Source of the DNA: Chryseobacterium gleum
GTDB lineage: Bacteria; Bacteroidota; Bacteroidia; Flavobacteriales; Flavobacteriaceae
Direction: 5' to 3'
Assembly: GCA_945897915.1 (NCBI GenBank)
Contig: CAMDGB010000018.1
Span: 1-44,239, forward strand
DNA: 44,239 bases
A program made the position numbers and the translations under genes. This document shows, piece after piece, positions 1 through 9,487 of this stretch (position 1 is the first letter of the stretch; every line of letters begins with the position of its first letter). The notes beneath the pieces are model-generated. The model did no database searches, was not told the origin of the DNA, and saw nothing but the letters and a program-made list of their open reading frames with translations.

Positions 1-19
1 GGAATTTAAAGTAAAAAAA

Positions 20-1351
20 ATGATAAAAAAAATTATGCAAATTTGCTTTGTGATGTTAGGAACTGTATCGTTTTTACAAGCACAAGAAACTCCAGCAGAA
101 GCTAAGTATCGTAGAAGTTCATTATCTATGATTTTAGTTGAATCTGAAAATTTCCCAAATAAAGCAGCTGTTATGGGATCTTGGGATAAATATCCATTTC
201 CTGATAAGTATAACAAACATGATGTAAGTTTAAAAAATGTAAATTTAGAGACAATGAAATTGTCTGACAAAGAAATGTTAGATGCTGGATTTTTAAAAGA
301 CACTTTAAAAACAGAATTACAGTTATTAACAGCAAGTGTAAAACGTGTAAAGTATTTAAATAACGAGAAAACTTTAGCAGTTGTCCTTCCTAGTGAAAAT
401 GATGAATATAGATTAAAGATTGATAAAGTTATTAAAGAAAAAAAACTTGCGAATCAATTAGTTGAAAGTTGGTTTATCAAAGATGGTAAATTTGACCTTG
501 GTTTAATTGGTAAAAGAGGTTCTTATGACGCTTCTCAAATAGATGCTGGTTATTCAAAAGATCAAGCAAGAGGTAGTGCGAGTCTTCAAGATGCTGGATA
601 TGAATTAATTAGTAATACATTTACCACTTTTACTAAGTTAAAGTTCATTGAAAATGAGCCTGTTGCTAGAGTAATTAGAGATGTTGCTAAAGCAGAAACA
701 GCAAAACAATTAGCTGGTAAACCTCAGTTTTTGATAGATAAAGCTATGCAAGCATTAGATAAAGTATATGAAAAAACTAAAGAGGGTTATACACTATATT
801 CAAATACTTGGTTGTATAAATTAAGTTGGAACGAAAATAGTTTGAATTCTGTTTATGATATTTGGGATACTCCATCTGAACTAGCTAAATCGGATAAATT
901 TAATTTAGAATTTGTAAATTTTCAATCTAATATGAGTTTAGTTACTTTTTCTTTAGGTGAAACACGTACTCAAGAACAAATTATAGATTTAGCATTAGTA
1001 AGAAATGTAGATAATGCTTTCGCCAAATTACAAAAAGAAAATGATGTATTTAAACCAAGAATACCTGTTTTAACTGGAAAACCATTAACTGCACAAATTG
1101 GAATGAAAGAAGGTTTAGAAGGTGGAGAAAAATTTGATCTACTTGAATTAGGTCAAGATCCTAAAACAGGATTATCAGTTTATAAAAAAGTAGGTTCTGT
1201 AAAAGTGGATAAAAAGCAAGTATGGGATAACCGATATAATGCTGGAGGTAAACCAGAAAAAGAACAAATGGATAAACAAGGAAATCCTATTAATGCTACA
1301 CTTTTTTCAGGAAAAGCGGAATTAGGTTTATTGCTTAAACAAGTTAAATAA
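20..1351 (+). CDS. Exported protein of unknown function with possible SH3-like C-terminal module; first gene of five-gene envelope operon
   Basis: Encodes 443 residues. Residues 1-22 form a signal peptide (lysines, hydrophobic core, FLQAQ at the cleavage region), so the product should reach the periplasm or outer membrane. No enzyme motif is visible. Residues about 352-400 contain IGMKEGLEGGEKFDLLEL followed by VGSVKVDKKQVWDNR. This pattern (basic-Glu-Gly-Leu, Gly-x-x-Phe, then a VGxVxV strand) resembles the small SH3-like C-terminal domain of FlgT-type proteins; that is my inference from pattern, not a database hit. It precedes four more exported proteins with gaps of 10-20 bases, so it is almost certainly co-transcribed. 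Its promoter lies before the window start: only 19 bases precede the ATG. Function unknown. Confidence 0.85.
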   Translation: MIKKIMQICFVMLGTVSFLQAQETPAEAKYRRSSLSMILVESENFPNKAAVMGSWDKYPFPDKYNKHDVSLKNVNLETMKLSDKEMLDAGFLKDTLKTELQLLTASVKRVKYLNNEKTLAVVLPSENDEYRLKIDKVIKEKKLANQLVESWFIKDGKFDLGLIGKRGSYDASQIDAGYSKDQARGSASLQDAGYELISNTFTTFTKLKFIENEPVARVIRDVAKAETAKQLAGKPQFLIDKAMQALDKVYEKTKEGYTLYSNTWLYKLSWNENSLNSVYDIWDTPSELAKSDKFNLEFVNFQSNMSLVTFSLGETRTQEQIIDLALVRNVDNAFAKLQKENDVFKPRIPVLTGKPLTAQIGMKEGLEGGEKFDLLELGQDPKTGLSVYKKVGSVKVDKKQVWDNRYNAGGKPEKEQMDKQGNPINATLFSGKAELGLLLKQVK

Positions 1352-1368
1352 TTTTTAAAAATAATAAA

Positions 1369-1887
1369 ATGAAAAGTAAATATTTATTTCTTACACTTAT
1401 TTTTTCATTATTTGTCAATCAAATGGTCTTCGCTCAGTCTTCTAATAAGAAGGCTGACAAAGACACATTTGAATGGCGATATGAAATCGAAGTATTTGGA
1501 CAAGGCGTTCAAGGAACATATCAAGTTAAAGTATGGTCATATTCAAAAAAAACTGAAACTGCTTTAGAGCAAGCTAAAAAAAATGCAGTTCATGGTGTGG
1601 TTTTTAAAGGTTTTCCATCAAAAGGACAACTAGAAGGTAAATCGGCACTTGCTACTTCTCCAAATGTTGAACAAGAAAAAGAAGATTTTTTTAGAGAATT
1701 TTTTGCAAATGGTGGTAAATATTTGAAATATGTAACTGTAGCTAATAACGGGGCTTTAGGTGCTGGAGATGTTATTAAAATAGGGAAGGAATATAAGGTA
1801 GGGGTTGTAATCTCAGTTAATGTAGCCATGTTGCGTAAAGATCTGGAAGATGCAGGTATTATAAAAGGATTAAGTAATGGTTTTTAA
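1369..1887 (+). CDS. Small exported protein, LPP20/FlgP-like candidate; paralogue of the next gene
   Basis: Encodes 172 residues with a signal peptide at 1-22 (VFA before QSS) and no lipobox, so it is probably soluble and periplasmic. The core has VKVWSYS (53-59), then EQAKKNAVHGVVFKG from residue 67, then FFREFFANGGKYLKYV (107-122), and ends with a VGVVISVNV strand. The next gene repeats each block in the same order, so the two are tandem paralogues. A beta strand followed by an alanine-rich helix containing AxxQAxxxAV is typical of LPP20/FlgP-like folds; that assignment is inference. It lies 17 bases after gene 1. No catalytic residues seen. Confidence 0.85.
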   Translation: MKSKYLFLTLIFSLFVNQMVFAQSSNKKADKDTFEWRYEIEVFGQGVQGTYQVKVWSYSKKTETALEQAKKNAVHGVVFKGFPSKGQLEGKSALATSPNVEQEKEDFFREFFANGGKYLKYVTVANNGALGAGDVIKIGKEYKVGVVISVNVAMLRKDLEDAGIIKGLSNGF

Positions 1888-1897
1888 TCAATTTAGC

Positions 1898-2383
1898 ATG
1901 AAATATTTTATTTATTTTCTAACACTTTTATTAATTTCTTCATGTGCTAGTTCTCCTCAGAAAAAAATTTCAGGTAATTATACATATAAAACAGAATGTT
2001 TAGGACTTGAATTAGATGGTTCACAAACAATTAAAGCTTGGGGTAACGGAAGAAATAGATTTGATGCCGTAGAACAAGCAAAAAAGAACGCTGTTAACGA
2101 TGTACTCTTTAATGGTATTTATGAAGGCAAACAAGATTGTGAAAAAAGACCCGTAGTCAGTGAAGTTAATGCTAGACAAAAATATGAGAATTATTTTAAT
2201 AGTTTTTTTGTTGATGGCGGAGAATATAAAAATTTTGTTTCTTTGAAAGATGAACGTACTTTTCAAAAAATTAATAGAGATAGAAAAGGCGCACGAGAAA
2301 GTATTACTCATGGATTTGTAATTCGTGTACTTCGTTCTGAATTAAAACAAAAAATGATTCAAGACGGTATAATTAAACAATAA
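1898..2383 (+). CDS. Small lipoprotein, paralogue of the preceding gene
   Basis: I start this gene at the ATG at 1898 rather than the in-frame ATG at 1877. The later start gives a clean lipoprotein signal (MKYFIYFLTLLLISSC, lipid-accepting Cys16), and the earlier one overlaps the preceding gene. The 161-residue product repeats the plan of its neighbour: IKAWGNG (45-51), VEQAKKNAVNDVLFNG from residue 58, YFNSFFVDGGEYKNFV (99-114), and a C-terminal GFVIRVLRSEL strand ending in DGIIKQ (DAGIIKG in the paralogue). No Asp follows the Cys, so nothing argues against outer-membrane sorting. One lipidated and one soluble paralogue side by side suggests a heteromeric assembly. Function unknown. Confidence 0.85.
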   Translation: MKYFIYFLTLLLISSCASSPQKKISGNYTYKTECLGLELDGSQTIKAWGNGRNRFDAVEQAKKNAVNDVLFNGIYEGKQDCEKRPVVSEVNARQKYENYFNSFFVDGGEYKNFVSLKDERTFQKINRDRKGARESITHGFVIRVLRSELKQKMIQDGIIKQ

Positions 2384-2403
2384 TTTAATAATAATTTACA
2401 TAT

Positions 2404-3345
2404 ATGAAAAAATTTATTTATAATTTTTTATTTTTTTTATTCATTTCTTTAAGTTTTGCTCAAGCAAAAAAGCCAACCATTATGGTTGTCCCAAGTGATG
2501 CTTGGTGTAAAGAAAATGGTTATATAATGGAGTTTGATAATCAGGGTAAAAAAACAACCGTATCTGATTACAAGAGAGCATTCCAAGAAAATACTGATTT
2601 ATTACTTGTAATTTCTAAGATAAATGAATTAATGGCAGAAAGAGGTTTTCCGCTTAAAAATTTAGAATCTTCGTTAAAAGCTTTGGAAAGTCAATCTGCA
2701 GAAGATGCAATGCTTACAAGTAAAAATGGTAGTGATGTAAGTGAAAGTCCAATTGATAAACTCAAAAAGACAGCTAAAGCTGATATTTGGATGCAAATGA
2801 CTTGGACTGTTAATAAAAGAGGTCCTGAAAAATCAATAACTTTTATTTTACAAGGTCTAGATGCCTACACAGACAAACAAGTTGCTGGAGCATCAGGAAC
2901 AGGTAATCCTTCTTCTTTTGCTGCTTTCCCAGTACTTCTTCAAGAAGCTGTTTTAGCTCATTTAGATAATTTTAATACACAATTACAAAAACATTTTGAT
3001 GATTTGTTTGCCAATGGAAGAGAAATAGTAGTTCGAATTAAAAAGTTTGATTCATTTGATGGCGATTTAGAAAGTGAATATGAAGGTGAAGAATTAGGAA
3101 CTTTAATTGAGAATTGGATTTCTGAAAACACTGTTCAAAAGAGATTCAGTACTACAGATGCTACAGAAAATATGATGTTTTTCGAACAAGTTAGAATACC
3201 ATTATACGACGTTAACAATAAAGCATTAGATGCTAGAGCTTGGATTAAAGGACTTCAAAAAAATCTTAAAGAAAAATATCAAATAGAGTCTAAGTTAATG
3301 ATGAAAGGTTTAGGACAAGCGCAACTAGTAATAGGTGAAAAATAA
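2404..3345 (+). CDS. Exported DUF6175-like protein with CsgG/FlgT-like features
   Basis: Encodes 313 residues, signal peptide about 1-21. The mature protein opens with the strand PTIMVVPSD (24-32), then a helix with ISKINELMAERGF (70-82), the strand KADIWMQMTWTV (115-126) and FILQGLDAYTDKQVAGASG (137-155). This order (PxIxVxPS strand, 'which member of the sequence' helix, 'can be a component of' strand, 'aspect of the tag' Asp-Ala-Tyr-Thr strand) matches the layout of TolB-N/LpoB/CsgG/FlgT-like domains. A second half follows (GREIVVRIKKFDS, 186-198; EQVRIPLYDV). I recall similar Bacteroidota proteins filed as DUF6175, but cannot verify this here. Fourth gene of the operon, 20 bases after the lipoprotein. 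Likely a periplasmic partner of the other four products; biochemical role unknown. Confidence 0.82.
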   Translation: MKKFIYNFLFFLFISLSFAQAKKPTIMVVPSDAWCKENGYIMEFDNQGKKTTVSDYKRAFQENTDLLLVISKINELMAERGFPLKNLESSLKALESQSAEDAMLTSKNGSDVSESPIDKLKKTAKADIWMQMTWTVNKRGPEKSITFILQGLDAYTDKQVAGASGTGNPSSFAAFPVLLQEAVLAHLDNFNTQLQKHFDDLFANGREIVVRIKKFDSFDGDLESEYEGEELGTLIENWISENTVQKRFSTTDATENMMFFEQVRIPLYDVNNKALDARAWIKGLQKNLKEKYQIESKLMMKGLGQAQLVIGEK

Positions 3346-3361
3346 TTTAAATAACTTAATA

Positions 3362-4327
3362 ATGAAAAAAATAATTTTATCAATTGCATTTTCTGTTTAT
3401 TCACTTTTAACTTATTCTCAAAATAATTTAGGCAAAGCTGATGATGCTGCAAGAATCGTATTGAATACATTTATTCCAGATCAAGTTGAAGGACTAACCG
3501 AATCTGCTAAGGCAAATTTATCTAATAAATTAAGCCAAATAGCGACTAAAGCTGGAATGGGTGGTAGTGCGTCAAATCCACGTTTTATAATTACTGCTAA
3601 TGTGGTTGTTTTAACAAAAGACATTACTCCAACCGCTCCACCTATGCATGCTTATACACTAGAAATTACGTTTTATATAGGAGACGGTATTGCGGGAACT
3701 AAGTTTGCTAGTACTTCATTAACTGCAAAAGGTGTAGGAGAAACAGAAACAAAAGCATATAATGCTGCTTTAAAAAATTTAAAAGTTGCTGATCCAAAAT
3801 ATCAAACTTTTATTGAAGATGGTAAAAATAAAATCATACAATATTATAATAGTAAATGTGATTTTATTTTAAAAGAGGCAGAAATGTTAACAAGTAAAAA
3901 TGATTACGATTCTGCAATTGCTACTTTAACTGCTATTCCAGAAGTTTGTAAAGAATGTTACGACAAAGCAATGAATGCTATTGGACCAATATACAAACAG
4001 CAAATTGATCGTCAATGCAAACTTGATTTCGCTGAAGCAAAGAATGCATGGAATGTAAGTCAAGATGCTTCTGCTGCAGAACAGGCCTCTATTTATCTTG
4101 CAAAAATTGATCCAAATTCTTCTTGTTATAATGATGCTCAAACCTTTTCTAATACAATTGCAAAAAGAATAAATGATTTAGACAAACGTGAGTGGAATTT
4201 TAAAATGAAACAACAACAAGATAACGTTGATTTGCAAAAAGCAACTATAAAAGCGGCTCGCGATATTGGAGTAGCTTATGGAAACAATCAACCAAAAGTT
4301 GTTTATAATGTTAGAGGATGGTGGTAA
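3362..4327 (+). CDS. Exported protein, TolB-N/CsgG-like N-terminal region plus TPR-like helices; last gene of the operon
   Basis: The start is the ATG at 3362: it opens a signal peptide (MKKIILSIAFSVYSLLTYSQ), while the in-frame ATG 27 bases earlier adds a polar stretch and overlaps the preceding gene. The product is 321 residues. Residues about 24-140 alternate helices and strands (SNKLSQIATKAGMGG, RFIITANVVVLT, TLEITFYIGDG, then an Ala-rich helix GETETKAYNAALKNL), compatible with a CsgG/TolB-N-like domain. Residues about 150-280 are helical with Cys-containing TPR-like units (SKNDYDSAIATLTAIP). The C-terminus is a long polar helix and ends in Trp-Trp. A strong terminator follows 46 bases later, closing the operon. 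Function unknown; domain calls are inference from pattern. Confidence 0.82.
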   Translation: MKKIILSIAFSVYSLLTYSQNNLGKADDAARIVLNTFIPDQVEGLTESAKANLSNKLSQIATKAGMGGSASNPRFIITANVVVLTKDITPTAPPMHAYTLEITFYIGDGIAGTKFASTSLTAKGVGETETKAYNAALKNLKVADPKYQTFIEDGKNKIIQYYNSKCDFILKEAEMLTSKNDYDSAIATLTAIPEVCKECYDKAMNAIGPIYKQQIDRQCKLDFAEAKNAWNVSQDASAAEQASIYLAKIDPNSSCYNDAQTFSNTIAKRINDLDKREWNFKMKQQQDNVDLQKATIKAARDIGVAYGNNQPKVVYNVRGWW

Positions 4328-4372
4328 TATATTATTCAAACAAATAAAGTAATATTATAAATTAGATTAAAT

Positions 4373-4402
4373 ACCTATAAGTTTCTTATAGGTGTTTTTT
4401 TT
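4373..4402 (+). terminator. Rho-independent terminator of the five-gene envelope operon
   Basis: A perfect 9-bp stem, ACCTATAAG at 4373-4381 and CTTATAGGT at 4385-4393, closes a three-base loop. A run of eight T follows from 4395. Placed 46 bases after the last gene of the operon. Confidence 0.9.
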
Positions 4403-4493
4403 ATTAAAAATATATTTTTATTTTATAATATTCATAAAATTTTAACAATAAATATGATATTTGAAAGTTATTATTTGAAAATATCTTATTTAT

Positions 4494-4667
4494 ATGAAAA
4501 ATCTACTAGTGTTATTAGCATTATTTTTTTAGTATTGAATAAATCCTTAAAAGTAATGTCTGAAGTATGGGGAAAGCCAACCTGTAAATAATTGTACTGA
4601 TGGTATACTTTGTTCGGAAAAAGAACATCAGCAAAATAGAATAAGCAGTTTTATAATTATTCAATAA
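4494..4667 (+). pseudogene. Decayed OmpA-family (peptidoglycan-associated) gene remnant
   Basis: Only the two ends of a gene survive. At 4494 an ATG opens MKNLLVLLALFF, a signal-peptide start, and hits TAG at 4530. At 4563-4667 another frame reads KYGESQPVNNCTDGILCSE, then KEHQQNRISSFIIIQ and TAA. The YGES, NNCxDGxxCSEKEHQxNR and final hydrophobic strand are the usual C-terminus of flavobacterial OmpA-like peptidoglycan-binding proteins (established family knowledge). The body of the gene is missing, and between the two ends the frame shifts and carries stops, so it cannot make a working protein. It may be the residue of a deletion between the upstream operon and the tRNA. Confidence 0.7.
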
Positions 4668-4691
4668 TTGTGTTAGGTTATAATAATAATT

Positions 4692-4729
4692 AAAAAAGAC
4701 AAACTTTTATCAAAGTTTGTCTTTTTTTT
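4692..4729. terminator. Strong bidirectional terminator after the OmpA remnant
   Basis: A 16-bp inverted repeat (AAAAAAGACAAACTTT at 4692-4707 and AAAGTTTGTCTTTTTT at 4712-4727) with a four-base loop and T-runs usable on both strands. It lies 25 bases after the stop of the OmpA remnant, so it is probably that gene's original terminator and still intact. Confidence 0.88.
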
Positions 4730-4801
4730 GTGGGCGATATTGATTTATCTTCAAATCAAATGTTGGAATTTCTAGAAAATTTCATTGAGGAAATATCATA
4801 A
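4730..4801 (+). pseudogene. Possible 3' end of a lost gene
   Basis: From 4733 a frame reads GDIDLSSNQMLEFLENFIEE followed by Ile-Ser and TAA at 4799. It has an amphipathic, protein-like composition and is followed by a terminator, as a true gene end would be. There is no plausible upstream coding sequence: the frame runs back into the preceding terminator. I do not recognise the family. It could be chance, but the residue mix is better than random AT-rich sequence. Confidence 0.3.
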
Positions 4802-4833
4802 AAAAAACCTCTAAATTTCTTCAGAGGTTTTTT
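4802..4833. terminator. Terminator for tRNA-Val (and usable on the plus strand)
   Basis: Inverted repeat AAAAAACCTCT (4802-4812) and AGAGGTTTTTT (4823-4833) with a ten-base loop. Read on the minus strand it comes directly after the 3' end of the tRNA and ends in a T-run. Confidence 0.85.
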
Positions 4834-4841
4834 GGTTTTAG

Positions 4842-4916
4842 TGGGCAATGAGGGGTTCGAACCCCCGACCCCCTCGGTGTAAACGAGGTGCTCTGAACCA
4901 GCTGAGCTAATTGCCC
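4842..4916 (-). tRNA. tRNA-Val (anticodon UAC)
   Basis: Read on the minus strand, the 75-base sequence folds as a cloverleaf. The acceptor GGGCAAT pairs with ATTGCCC, followed by discriminator A. The D-arm contains AGCTCAGCTGGTTCAGAGC. The anticodon stem CCTCG/CGAGG encloses the loop TTTACAC, giving anticodon TAC, which reads GUA valine codons. The T-arm is GGGGG TTCGAAC CCC.. in the usual form. CCA is not encoded. It has its own promoter and terminator and is a single gene here. Confidence 0.97.
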
Positions 4917-4944
4917 TGTTTTATATACTTTCGTAATAGGAGTG

Positions 4945-4974
4945 CAAATATACATTCAAATTTTTCAAATACAA
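4945..4974 (-). promoter_or_regulatory. Promoter of tRNA-Val
   Basis: On the minus strand, TTG (4974-4972), a 19-base spacer and TATATTTG (4952-4945) match the Bacteroidota sigma-70 consensus TTG-N19-TAnnTTTG exactly. The tRNA 5' end lies 28 bases downstream. Confidence 0.85.
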
Positions 4975-4992
4975 GTAATAACAAATAATAAT

Positions 4993-5379
4993 TTAATTAA
5001 ATTGTATATCCTCTAAAATTACTTTATTTGTTTCGTTTATAATTGTAAGGGTAACTTTTTTATTTTCAGATAATTGAGATTCAATGATGTATTTTTTTCC
5101 GTTTTTATACGGAATGTTACTTTTAGAAAAATCTACATTACCGTTAGAAATTGCTAAATCTATGGCTTTCAAATTGGTTATTTTTTTAGCAAAAATACTA
5201 TCTACTTCCGCTGAAGTTTTAAAGGGTTTACTTCTAATATCTTTAATCACTCTACAATTTGGAAAATAACAAAAAGTAACGCCTCTTGAAGTGGCTTTTG
5301 CAGATAAAAATTCCCCCACAAAATAAAACCCAATTAACAAACCGAATAAATAAAAAGCTAATCTGTAACGTAAAGACAT
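4993..5379 (-). CDS. Small membrane-anchored DUF4258-like protein
   Basis: Encodes 128 residues. One hydrophobic segment (about 7-26, LAFYLFGLLIGFYFVGEFLS) anchors the protein, with most of the chain after it. The remainder contains CYFPNCRVIKDIRSKPF, NVDFSKSNIPYKNGKKYIIE and ends in a short strand. I recall this layout from flavobacterial proteins annotated as DUF4258; the assignment is from memory of the pattern. No catalytic motif is visible. It is a single-gene unit with a consensus promoter 20 bases upstream of its ATG, divergent from the E1 dehydrogenase gene. Confidence 0.8.
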   Translation of the reverse strand: MSLRYRLAFYLFGLLIGFYFVGEFLSAKATSRGVTFCYFPNCRVIKDIRSKPFKTSAEVDSIFAKKITNLKAIDLAISNGNVDFSKSNIPYKNGKKYIIESQLSENKKVTLTIINETNKVILEDIQFN

Positions 5380-5399
5380 TATACTAAATTTTAATACTG

Positions 5400-5429
5400 C
5401 AAAGATAGCACTATAAATAGGATTGTCAA
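5400..5429 (-). promoter_or_regulatory. Promoter of the DUF4258-like gene
   Basis: Minus-strand TTG (5429-5427), 19-base spacer, TATCTTTG (5407-5400); an exact match to TTG-N19-TAnnTTTG. The ATG at 5379 lies 20 bases downstream. Confidence 0.85.
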
Positions 5430-5531
5430 AAAACTATTTTTTCTTATTTTGCTTAAAAGACATCGTATTAAATAAAATAATTTTCCACAAATTATTATTC
5501 TAACAAAATTCTTTTAAAATGTTATTTTTGT

Positions 5532-5539
5532 TACTTTTG
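5532..5539 (+). promoter_or_regulatory. -7 element of the E1 dehydrogenase / acs unit
   Basis: TACTTTTG fits TAnnTTTG 25 bases before the ATG at 5565. No TTG sits at the expected -33 spacing, so this may be a weaker or regulated promoter. Confidence 0.55.
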
Positions 5540-5564
5540 AAGAAAATTACATTTCAAATATACT

Positions 5565-7541
5565 ATGATTTTTGATAGACAAAATATAACCAACGAAAAG
5601 CTACTTCAATTATATAAAAAATTAGTAAAACCCCGACTAATTGAAGAAAAAATGCTCATTTTGTTACGACAAGGTAAAGTATCAAAATGGTTTTCAGGTA
5701 TCGGACAAGAAGCAATTTCTGTTGGAATTACTTGTGCTTTAGATGCTGACGAGTACATTTTGCCAATGCATAGAAACTTAGGTGTTTTCACTTCTCGTGA
5801 TATTCCTTTGCATCGATTATTTTCGCAATGGCAGGGAAAGAAAACGGGTTTTACAAAAGGTAGAGACAGAAGTTTTCATTTCGGCACACAAGAATATAAA
5901 ATTATTGGGATGATTTCCCATTTGGGACCGCAAATGGGTGTGGCTGACGGAATTGCATTAGCTAATAAGCTAAAACAAAATGGTAAAGTAACCGCCGTTT
6001 TTACTGGTGAAGGCGCTACTTCAGAAGGCGATTTTCATGAAGCACTAAATATTGCCGCAGTTTGGGATTTACCAGTATTATTCGTCATTGAAAACAACGG
6101 TTACGGACTTTCTACACCAACAAACGAACAGTATCGTTGTGAAAACTTAGCGGATAAAGGTATCGGTTACGGTATGGAAAGTCATATTATTGACGGTAAT
6201 AATATTTTAGAAGTTTACCATAAAATTTCAGAATTAAAAGCATCAATGATTGTCAATCCTCGTCCTGTTTTGTTAGAGTTTTTAACTTTCAGAATGCGAG
6301 GACATGAAGAGGCGAGTGGCACCAAATATGTCCCACAAGAATTAATGGATATTTGGGCAGAAAAAGATCCAATTGTTAATTATAGAAAATATTTAATCGC
6401 CACCGATGTTTTGTCTGAAAAAGAAGATACTCAAATTCGTGAAGCTATTAAAGCAGAAATAGATGAACATTGGGCAATTACTCAAGCTGCAGAAGAAGTT
6501 GTGGCTAATTTAGAAGAAGAGTTAAACGATGTTTATGCACCTTATGCACATGAAGAGATTAACCCATCGGATGTAACTGAAAACATTCGATTTATTGATG
6601 CCATTTCACATTCGTTACGACAATCCATGCAACGTTATCCGGATTTGGTAATTATGGGGCAGGATATAGCAGAATATGGTGGTGCGTTTAAAATCACAGA
6701 CGGTTTTGTAGCTGAATTTGGTAAAGAACGTGTAAGAAATACTCCAATTTGTGAAAGTGCTGTAGTTTCCGCAGGAATGGGATTGTCGATAAACGGATGC
6801 AAAGCGATTGTAGAAATGCAATTTGCCGATTTCGTATCTACAGGATTTAATCCGATTGTTAATTTATTGGCAAAACAACACTATCGTTGGAATGAAAAAG
6901 CCGATGTAGTGGTTCGAATGCCTTGTGGCGGCGGTACGCAAGCCGGACCTTTTCATTCGCAAACTAATGAAGCTTGGTTTACTAAAACGCCTGGTTTAAA
7001 AGTGGTTTATCCTGCTTTTCCTTACGATGTAAAAGGATTATTAAATACAGCAATTAACGATCCGAATCCGGTTTTGTTTTTTGAGCATAAACAATTGTAT
7101 AGAAGTATTCATCAGGATGTTCCAACAGATTATTACACGATTCCTTTAGGAAAAGCGGCATTGTTAAAAGAAGGAAAGGATGTTACCATTATTTCGTTTG
7201 GAGCAGGCGTGCATTGGGCTTTGGAAACTTTAGCTAATAACCCAGAAATTGCTGCAGATGTTTTAGATTTACGAACCTTACAACCTTTGGATACAGCAGC
7301 AATTTTTGCATCTGTACAAAAAACTGGTAAATGTATTATTTTACAAGAAGATACTTTATTTGGCGGAATTTCAAGTGATATTTCGGCTTTAATTATGGAA
7401 AACTGCTTTGAATATTTAGATGCGCCAGTTAGACGTGTTGGGAGCTTAGAAACCCCAATTCCGTTTGTAAAAGCTATTGAAGATCAATATTTACCAAAAA
7501 CTCGTTTTGAAGTAGCATTAAAAGAATTGGTGTCTTTTTAA
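5565..7541 (+). CDS. Fused alpha-beta E1 component of branched-chain 2-oxo acid dehydrogenase
   Basis: Encodes 658 residues: an E1-alpha-like half (about 1-335) joined to an E1-beta-like half (about 343-658). The alpha half carries the thiamine diphosphate motif GEGATSEGDFHEALNIAA ... ENN (148-178) and a RxRGHEE loop. The beta half carries the transketolase-like sequence RFIDAISHSLRQSM, a QDIAEYGGAF loop and the C-terminal ETPIPFVKAIEDQYLP. The fused form is common in Bacteroidota and is usually annotated as 2-oxoisovalerate dehydrogenase, which decarboxylates branched-chain 2-oxo acids and passes the acyl group to lipoyl-E2. E2 and E3 are not in the window. The acetyl-CoA synthetase gene follows after 38 bases. 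Substrate assignment could be off; the E1 class is secure. Confidence 0.93.
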   Translation: MIFDRQNITNEKLLQLYKKLVKPRLIEEKMLILLRQGKVSKWFSGIGQEAISVGITCALDADEYILPMHRNLGVFTSRDIPLHRLFSQWQGKKTGFTKGRDRSFHFGTQEYKIIGMISHLGPQMGVADGIALANKLKQNGKVTAVFTGEGATSEGDFHEALNIAAVWDLPVLFVIENNGYGLSTPTNEQYRCENLADKGIGYGMESHIIDGNNILEVYHKISELKASMIVNPRPVLLEFLTFRMRGHEEASGTKYVPQELMDIWAEKDPIVNYRKYLIATDVLSEKEDTQIREAIKAEIDEHWAITQAAEEVVANLEEELNDVYAPYAHEEINPSDVTENIRFIDAISHSLRQSMQRYPDLVIMGQDIAEYGGAFKITDGFVAEFGKERVRNTPICESAVVSAGMGLSINGCKAIVEMQFADFVSTGFNPIVNLLAKQHYRWNEKADVVVRMPCGGGTQAGPFHSQTNEAWFTKTPGLKVVYPAFPYDVKGLLNTAINDPNPVLFFEHKQLYRSIHQDVPTDYYTIPLGKAALLKEGKDVTIISFGAGVHWALETLANNPEIAADVLDLRTLQPLDTAAIFASVQKTGKCIILQEDTLFGGISSDISALIMENCFEYLDAPVRRVGSLETPIPFVKAIEDQYLPKTRFEVALKELVSF

Positions 7542-7579: not shown

Positions 7580-9487
7580 ATGAGCTATTATAAAATTACT
7601 GATTTAGAAAATTATTTTAAAATGTACAAAAAATCGGTACGCGAACCAAGAAAATTTTGGGATCGTATTGCTGATGAAAACTTTACTTGGTATCAAAAAT
7701 GGGATAAAGTATTTGATGTAGATATGCAAGAAGCAAATTTTAAATGGTTTTTAAATGCAAAAGTAAACATTACTAAAAACTGTATCGATAGACATTTAGC
7801 GAAACGTGGCGATAAAACAGCCATTATATTTGAACCAAACGATCCAAAAGAGGCCGCGTTACATATTACGTATAATGAATTGTATGTAAGAGTTTCTAAA
7901 ATGGCAAACGTATTGCGTGAACAAGGTATTACAAAAGGCGATAGAGTTTGTATTTATTTACCAATGATTCCAGAATTGGCCGTTGCTGTTTTAGCATGTG
8001 CACGAATTGGAGCCATACACTCGGTAGTATTTGCTGGTTTTTCAGCATCTGCTGTAGCAGCAAGAATTAACGATTCTGAATGTAAAATGGTAATTACATC
8101 TGATGGTGGATTTAGAGGTAATAAATCAATTGATTTAAAAGGAATCGTAGATGAAGCATTGGAAAAATGTCCTTGTGTAGAAAAAGTGTTAGTTGCTAAA
8201 AGAACTAATACGGCTGTAAATATGAAAGATGGTCGCGACATTTGGTTACAACCACTTTTAGATGCTGCTTTAGGAAATAATGTAGCTGAAATTATGGATG
8301 CAGAAGATCCTTTATTCATTTTATATACTTCAGGTTCTACCGGAAAACCAAAAGGAATGTTACATACTACAGCGGGTTATATGGTTTACACAGCTTATAC
8401 ATTTAAAAACGTTTTCAATTATGAACAAAATGACGTTTTTTGGTGTACTGCCGATATCGGTTGGATAACAGGTCATTCCTATATATTATACGGTCCGTTA
8501 TTAAATGGAGCAACTACAGTACTTTTCGAAGGCATCCCTTCTTATCCAGATTATAGTCGTTTTTGGGAAGTAATTGAAAAACACCAAGTCAGTCAATTTT
8601 ACACAGCACCAACTGCCATTCGTGCTTTAGCTAAAGAAAATTTAGATTATGTTCAAAAATTCCCATTAAGTTCTTTAAAAGTGATTGGATCTGTTGGAGA
8701 ACCTATAAATGAAGAGGCTTGGCATTGGTATAACGACCACGTAGGAGGAAAGCGATGCCCATTAGTAGATACTTGGTGGCAAACCGAAACAGGTGGAATT
8801 ATGATATCGCCAATTCCATTTGTAACTCCAACAAAACCAACATACGCTTCTTTGCCGTTACCAGGAATTCAGCCGGTATTAATGGATGAATTAAGAAACG
8901 AAATTGAAGGCAACCAAGTAACAGGTAGTTTATGTATTAAATTTCCTTGGCCGTCTATGGCTAGAACCATTTGGGGTGATCACCAACGTTATAAAGACAC
9001 GTATTTTTCAACTTTTCCAGGTAAATATTTCACTGGAGACGGTGCTTTACGCGATGAAGTTGGATATTATCGTATTACGGGTAGGGTAGATGATGTAATT
9101 ATTGTTTCCGGCCATAATTTAGGAACTGCGCCTATTGAAGATGCTATAAATGAACATCCAGCTGTTGCAGAAAGTGCAATTGTGGGTTTTCCTCACGATA
9201 TTAAAGGAAATGCGTTATATGGTTTTGTAATTTTGAAAGAAACAGGAGAAACAAGAAATCAAGATAATTTAAGAAAAGAAATCAATCAATTAATTTCAAA
9301 CCAAGTGGGACCGATAGCTAAATTGGATAAAATTCAATTTGTTTCTAGTTTACCAAAAACACGCTCTGGAAAAATTATGAGACGTATATTAAGAAAAATT
9401 GCAGAAGGTGATTTCTCTAATTTCGGAGATATTTCTACGTTGTTAAACCCTGAAATTGTTGAAGAAATTAAAAACGAAAAAATATAG
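7580..9487 (+). CDS. acs: Acetyl-CoA synthetase (AMP-forming)
   Basis: Encodes 635 residues, close to the usual 640-655. It activates acetate to acetyl-CoA through acetyl-AMP in the cytoplasm. Visible motifs: the P-loop-like YTSGSTGKPKGMLHT near residue 250, DTWWQTETGG near 400, FTGDGALRDEVGYYRITGRV near 495, the hinge DDVIIVSGHNLGT, and PKTRSGKIMRR near 593, whose last lysine is the acetylation-controlled catalytic lysine of the family. Trp in the DTWWQTE region is typical of acetate-specific enzymes. It lies 38 bases after the E1 gene. Its end faces the exonuclease gene, only 12 bases away, with no hairpin between them. Confidence 0.95.
   Translation: MSYYKITDLENYFKMYKKSVREPRKFWDRIADENFTWYQKWDKVFDVDMQEANFKWFLNAKVNITKNCIDRHLAKRGDKTAIIFEPNDPKEAALHITYNELYVRVSKMANVLREQGITKGDRVCIYLPMIPELAVAVLACARIGAIHSVVFAGFSASAVAARINDSECKMVITSDGGFRGNKSIDLKGIVDEALEKCPCVEKVLVAKRTNTAVNMKDGRDIWLQPLLDAALGNNVAEIMDAEDPLFILYTSGSTGKPKGMLHTTAGYMVYTAYTFKNVFNYEQNDVFWCTADIGWITGHSYILYGPLLNGATTVLFEGIPSYPDYSRFWEVIEKHQVSQFYTAPTAIRALAKENLDYVQKFPLSSLKVIGSVGEPINEEAWHWYNDHVGGKRCPLVDTWWQTETGGIMISPIPFVTPTKPTYASLPLPGIQPVLMDELRNEIEGNQVTGSLCIKFPWPSMARTIWGDHQRYKDTYFSTFPGKYFTGDGALRDEVGYYRITGRVDDVIIVSGHNLGTAPIEDAINEHPAVAESAIVGFPHDIKGNALYGFVILKETGETRNQDNLRKEINQLISNQVGPIAKLDKIQFVSSLPKTRSGKIMRRILRKIAEGDFSNFGDISTLLNPEIVEEIKNEKI

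Follow-up and report, generated by a model that had tools for sequence, protein, structure and literature searches.

A conserved five-gene operon of Bacteroidota that may encode an outer-membrane-associated ring or scaffold of FlgT domain types

Introduction

What could five adjacent genes for exported proteins build in the cell envelope of a bacterium? The question is raised by positions 20–4327 of a 44,239-nucleotide stretch of Chryseobacterium gleum DNA (CAMDGB010000018.1; hereafter, the window), which is one entire contig of a genome of 2.14 Mb and 99.89% completeness. A first interpretation of these letters without database searches (the sequence-only reading) took the five genes for an uncharacterised envelope complex with parts like those of the Vibrio flagellar ring (FlgO, FlgP, and FlgT) or like LpoB and CsgG. 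Here, we report that the five-gene operon is a real unit. Predicted folds make us lean slightly towards an outer-membrane-associated periplasmic ring or scaffold of FlgT domain types, used without a flagellum; we infer both the passage from fold to ring and that from ring to function.

Conservation of the operon

The five open reading frames (ORFs) lie on the same strand, with gaps of 17, 10, 20, and 16 bases (Table 1), which confirms the spacing of 10–20 bases described from the letters. Their starts were chosen as those giving signal-like N-termini. By eye, a hydrophobic signal-like stretch opens all five proteins and gene 3 has a lipobox, in agreement with the claim of five exported proteins, one of them a lipoprotein. 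Because the window starts at the contig end, next to which gene 1 begins, the stretch 5′ of gene 1 lies outside view. Only gene 4 passed a Pfam cut-off: it is DUF6175 (PF19672; E 2.2e-124, 414.8 bits vs. a cut-off of 23, positions 1–293 of 293), a family with no assigned function and with no paper under this name in the open-licence literature, where absence is not proof. None of the five passed an NCBIfam cut-off. Thus, the operon is not wholly unnamed, since gene 4 belongs to DUF6175; the other four genes have no Pfam name over the cut-off.

Table 1. Features at the beginning of the window (aa, amino acids).
Feature	Positions	Strand	Description
Gene 1	20..1351	+	443 aa, predicted to be exported; FlgT-like in the predicted model, with CsgG/TolB-N-like body and C-terminal small beta-barrel, residues about 345-443
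Gene 2	1369..1887	+	172 aa, predicted to be exported; SHS2/LPP20-like fold predicted via homologues
Gene 3	1898..2383	+	161 aa predicted lipoprotein; gene 2 paralogue; lipobox LLISSC
Gene 4	2404..3345	+	313 aa, predicted to be exported; DUF6175, with TolB-N/CsgG/PelC-like fold predicted via homologues
Gene 5	3362..4327	+	321 aa, predicted to be exported; N-part related to LPP20-partner C-terminus, then putative TPR-like helices
Terminator-like hairpin with T tail	4369..4397	+	3′ of gene 5; consensus match only

Loci in relatives were sampled by scanning contigs with a DUF6175 alignment, which gave at least 592 pattern matches and at least 508 relatives; the best 80 loci were analysed, and their ORFs were assigned by family profiles. 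Gene 5 lay directly 3′ of gene 4 in 77/80 loci, the full 1-2-3-4-5 order was present in 41/80, and genes 1, 2, 4, and 5 were found in order in 67/80 (gene 3 optional, duplicates allowed). Median gaps between usual neighbours ranged from 11.5 to 41 bases. Six of the 13 exceptional loci end at a contig edge (four 2-3-4-5, one 3-4-5, and one 1-2-2-3-4); the other seven comprise three 1-3-4-5 loci, two in which this rule found no gene 5, one with 4-5 only, and one 2-3-4-5-1. For one 1-3-4-5 locus (L030), gene 2 is merged into the gene 1 ORF. Flanking genes vary: the widest flanking clusters, housekeeping-like by eye, occur in only 9/80 loci, many loci being short-flanked. Conservation of operon membership in relatives had been named beforehand as a check, and the 67 ordered loci support it.

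Locus L042, one of the 67, has genes 1–3 in pieces and genes 4 and 5 intact; its genes upstream of 10001 could be a decaying operon copy or contain sequencing errors. Another record (L085), titled as a Bifidobacterium breve metagenome-assembled genome, carries a Bacteroidota operon and is probably a mis-binned contig.

Operon forms and predicted folds

The operon was found in three forms. Form A is the window's arrangement. Form B (L099–L103) retains one gene 2/3-like protein, DUF6175, and gene 5, and has a different first gene, which passed the Pfam CsgG cut-off in three of five loci (L099, L100, and L101, the last by 0.2 bits) and the LpoB cut-off in two (L099 and L100); those of L102 and L103 passed neither. 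The CsgG/LpoB-like parts expected by the sequence-only reading are, therefore, present as the first gene of sister operons. In form C (L105–L110), a gene 2/3-like domain and DUF6175 make up one protein, with DUF6175 over the cut-off in the three of six that were scanned, and the gene after the fusion passed the LPP20 cut-off in L107 (32.4 bits vs. 25.9), the one of six that was scanned. Close database relatives of form C are named Chloroherpetonaceae, Kryptonium, and Ignavibacteria, among others. An LPP20-like gene is also a downstream cluster in 4/80 form-A loci, below the cut-off in L025. The genes at L101:461–4661, on the 3′ side of a form-B operon, resemble by eye a type I restriction-modification set.

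Structures were predicted for two proteins: gene 1 and a naturally fused protein of a relative, in which DUF6175 is joined to a gene 2/3-like domain. The best PDB match of the fusion model was FlgT (E 1.1e-7). For the AlphaFold2 (AF2) model of gene 1 (predicted local distance difference test, pLDDT, 76.1), the top matches were 3w1e (FlgT, E 2.1e-4) and 8z5n chain 0 (LPHT ring, E 2.3e-4), with the next one at 0.33, so that FlgT ranks first with a weak match. Both models rank these two entries first, with FlgT at the top, but the root-mean-square deviation is 12–16 Å in a second aligner. As far as these two models go, the predicted structures did not contradict the folds that had been named for this operon, the match of gene 1 being weak.

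FlgT combines N, M, and C domains in a single protein, and Pfam holds curated FlgT profile models. Membership of the FlgT, CsgG, or LPP20 families was not supported by sequence, as no profile of these families passed its Pfam cut-off in the window proteins. FlgT (at E up to 1), FlgO, and FlgP models gave no match in the five proteins, and neither did Pfam CsgG. Among relatives, the FlgT profile matched none of 38 gene 2/3 proteins (alignment A4: 23 of 70 gene 2 and 15 of 54 gene 3 proteins) and none of 33 gene 1 proteins (alignment A7, 33 of 59) at E up to 0.5. It was also absent for 36 gene 5 proteins (alignment A5, 36 of 72) among the 25 of 41 families listed.

Genes 2 and 3 aligned with each other in hhalign (E 3.2e-36) and with the N-domain of the fusion proteins (E 2.2e-10 and 5.4e-11, respectively; alignment A9 holds 55 of 120 listed fusion proteins). 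Through the model of that domain, both would adopt an SHS2/LPP20-like fold. The same label failed at the sequence level: Pfam LPP20 matched 0/38 gene 2/3 proteins at E up to 0.5 and 0/5 form-B gene 2/3 proteins at E up to 1. In five loci (L049, L052, L053, L064, and L071), one protein of 291–345 aa combines a gene 3-like domain with a gene 2-like one in head-to-tail order.

Gene 4 matched the fusion M-domain directly at only E 2.2e-4; it matched form-B gene 4 at E 7.2e-29, which in turn matched the M-domain at E 7.7e-17, and via these homologues a TolB-N/CsgG/PelC-like fold is predicted for it. Gene 5 aligned with form-B gene 5 (E 2.2e-34), and the latter with the LPP20-partner C-terminus (E 7.1e-6). 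The CsgG-like part of gene 5 is putative. A gene 5 relative in L099 matched Pfam ARM_TT21 with 27.8 bits, just above the cut-off of 27, and is the lone match behind the TPR-like part.

The DUF6175 domain of the fusion model matched PelC, CsgG, and TolB, and was closest by Z to PelC, a part of the Pel exopolysaccharide exporter, and to CsgG. Together with the CsgG/LpoB protein that opens form-B operons and the possible barrels on some gene 1 relatives (see below), this would also suit a channel for export across the outer membrane, in which periplasmic adaptors and a CsgG- or Pel-like pore would carry a secreted polymer or protein encoded elsewhere. We consider such a channel rather unlikely, as no cargo, synthase, or CsgE/F-like gene was seen by eye in the 30 clusters found most widely in the flanks of the 80 loci, and gene 1 of the window has no barrel-like extension.

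The fusion model also matched LpoB in the PDB (E 7.6e-4). With two of five form-B first genes over the LpoB cut-off, this could indicate a regulator of peptidoglycan synthesis, whose LpoB-like lipoprotein partners would reach a penicillin-binding protein through the wall. However, LpoB ranked below FlgT, PelC, and CsgG, and the sporadic presence of the operon reported below is unlike that of a housekeeping part of the cell wall, so we regard this role as improbable.

Gene 1, lipidation, and flagella

The C-terminal motif of gene 1, loosely G.KEG ... E ... DN, aligned among the window, five long and two normal gene 1 proteins, L103, and L108. The SH3-like pattern described from the letters, here a small-barrel motif, is hence retained in relatives. 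A C-terminal extension of 171–239 residues, with F, Y, L, or I in the last position, was present on 9/82 gene 1 ORFs (L030 excluded; L081 is a partial ORF) and absent from that of the window. When ten pieces were scanned (eight from gene 1, L103, and L108), an outer-membrane barrel family was among the matches of five, the best at 1.6e-4 and none over the cut-off. Counts of amphipathic strands were mildly above shuffles in most extensions, except in L090 and L081. From these sequence features, an outer-membrane barrel is possible on some gene 1 relatives.

A simple lipobox rule gave matches in 22/58 gene 3, 10/76 gene 2, 7/77 gene 5, 2/75 gene 1, and 0/80 gene 4 proteins, and in 4/5 form-B gene 2/3 proteins. 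Lipidation thus varies.

FlhA (PF00771), the only flagellar gene sought, was not found in 17/19 operon genomes, the window's included; these were 13 of 15 known carriers and six genomes behind the 80 loci. As a control, the search detected FlhA in E. coli, B. subtilis, Caulobacter, and Thermotoga (4/14). The two carriers with FlhA (G147 and G281) are both outside the window's class. They are also the genomes of L103 and L108, respectively, in which the first gene has a possible barrel.

Distribution and horizontal movement

DUF6175 was over the cut-off in 3/40 relatives and 13/296 genomes of the phylum (own genome in both counts), and a single-sequence search with gene 1 found 2/296 genomes, own included. 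In the protein database, the 7996 candidates scored for gene 1 included 1591 relatives, and the 7999 scored for gene 4 included at least 7025. Alignment A1 took in 31 of 120 listed gene 1 relatives plus the window. With many database relatives and few sampled genomes, the set is common in metagenomes and sporadic in sampled species.

Gene 4 and another window protein gave different pictures of relatedness. The window protein at 7580–9487, which we take to be acetyl-CoA-synthetase-like, presented 85–88% identity in the four named Flavobacterium genomes searched (G334, G335, G338, and G339) and 60% in Bacteroidetes bacterium UKL13-3 (G337), whereas gene 4 presented 67–70% in the same four genomes vs. 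73% in UKL13-3. In a tree of 37 of 79 gene 4 proteins, window included, nine Flavobacterium isolates were scattered over several places and the window paired with a Saprospiraceae record (SH-like approximate likelihood ratio test, SH-aLRT, 96). Window and Flavobacterium isolates as one group were rejected in a quick tree (approximately unbiased, AU, test, p 1.6e-55), partly because the isolates themselves split. The distant form B is present in G018 and G192, two genomes of the same genus as the window, with gene 4 identities of 25–26%. Since the gene 4 tree is at odds with species grouping, the operon was likely passed horizontally between Bacteroidota.

A sporadic and likely horizontally moved set could also be an accessory stress or phage-defence cassette acting in the envelope, and one relative (L084) has a caspase domain fused to gene 3. 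That fusion is limited to a single locus, the window's five proteins gave no PADLOC match up to E 0.01, and the widest flanking clusters look housekeeping-like by eye, which makes a cassette of this kind very improbable. The fused gene itself (L084:2324–3694; Pfam Peptidase_C14 E 1.8e-20, PADLOC caspase 1.2e-17) would couple a caspase-like protease with an envelope protein.

In the window, consensus matching alone gave 5 terminator-like sites in 1–5600 vs. 1.6 expected from shuffles. On the 3′ side of the operon, a 128 aa ORF at 4993–5379 (−) matched nothing in Pfam or NCBIfam (E up to 1).

Discussion

For a periplasmic ring or scaffold at the outer membrane, the division of labour could be as follows. 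Gene 3, the predicted lipoprotein, would anchor the assembly in the outer membrane, and genes 2 and 3 would provide SHS2 units of the LPP20/FlgP/FlgT-N type. Gene 4 would provide a unit of the TolB-N/CsgG/PelC type, whose fold is ring-forming in PelC and CsgG. Gene 1 would add a second unit of this type and a FlgT-C-like small barrel, with a possible outer-membrane barrel in some relatives, and the TPR-like helices of gene 5 would bridge to other periplasmic parts. The flagellar-ring-like interpretation of the sequence-only reading stood in part: the conserved order, FlgT as top match of both models, and CsgG/LpoB in sister operons speak for it, and the LPP20 assignment by sequence did not hold.

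The operon shares with the Vibrio flagellar H-ring (FlgO, FlgP, and FlgT) a lipoprotein together with SHS2, TolB-N-like, and small-barrel domains, as predicted for the operon. Unlike in the H-ring, these domains are on separate genes, and FlhA was not found in the window's genome. The parts corresponding to FlgT are spread over separate window genes, and form C joins only the N-like and M-like parts.

The predicted SHS2-like domain with an insert after the helix is also shared with FlgP of the Campylobacter/Helicobacter basal disk and with Lpp20. FlgP is described as deriving from a broad family, ring formation is linked to an insert, and FlgQ is described as resembling a two-FlgP repeat (PMC12222027), a make-up that the fused gene 3–gene 2 proteins recall. 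In contrast to FlgP/Lpp20, the operon-type insert is helical in the predicted model, and FlhA was absent from most carriers searched. Regarding the PelC, CsgG, and TolB N-terminal folds, the operon differs in that no Pel or curli genes were recognised beside it and in that the model has an extra C-terminal domain. No paper linking FlgT, FlgP, LPP20, or CsgG with Bacteroidetes/Bacteroidota was found in the open-licence literature, where absence is not proof.

A broader idea, which we offer tentatively and hold to be doubtful on balance, is that the operon encodes a free-standing, mobile outer-membrane ring machine. Its parts would be unassembled counterparts of FlgT, FlgP, and FlgO, with DUF6175 as a widespread hub. 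It would operate with no flagellum at all and would represent a non-flagellar stock out of which the H-ring and the basal disk were recruited.

The flagellar motors of polar swimmers carry outer-membrane rings, and this operon may bear on where such rings came from. They could be studied on their own through a conserved operon that has these domain types in common with them and in which 17/19 carriers searched lack FlhA. Moreover, DUF6175, with at least 7025 database relatives, gains a likely fold and a gene context.
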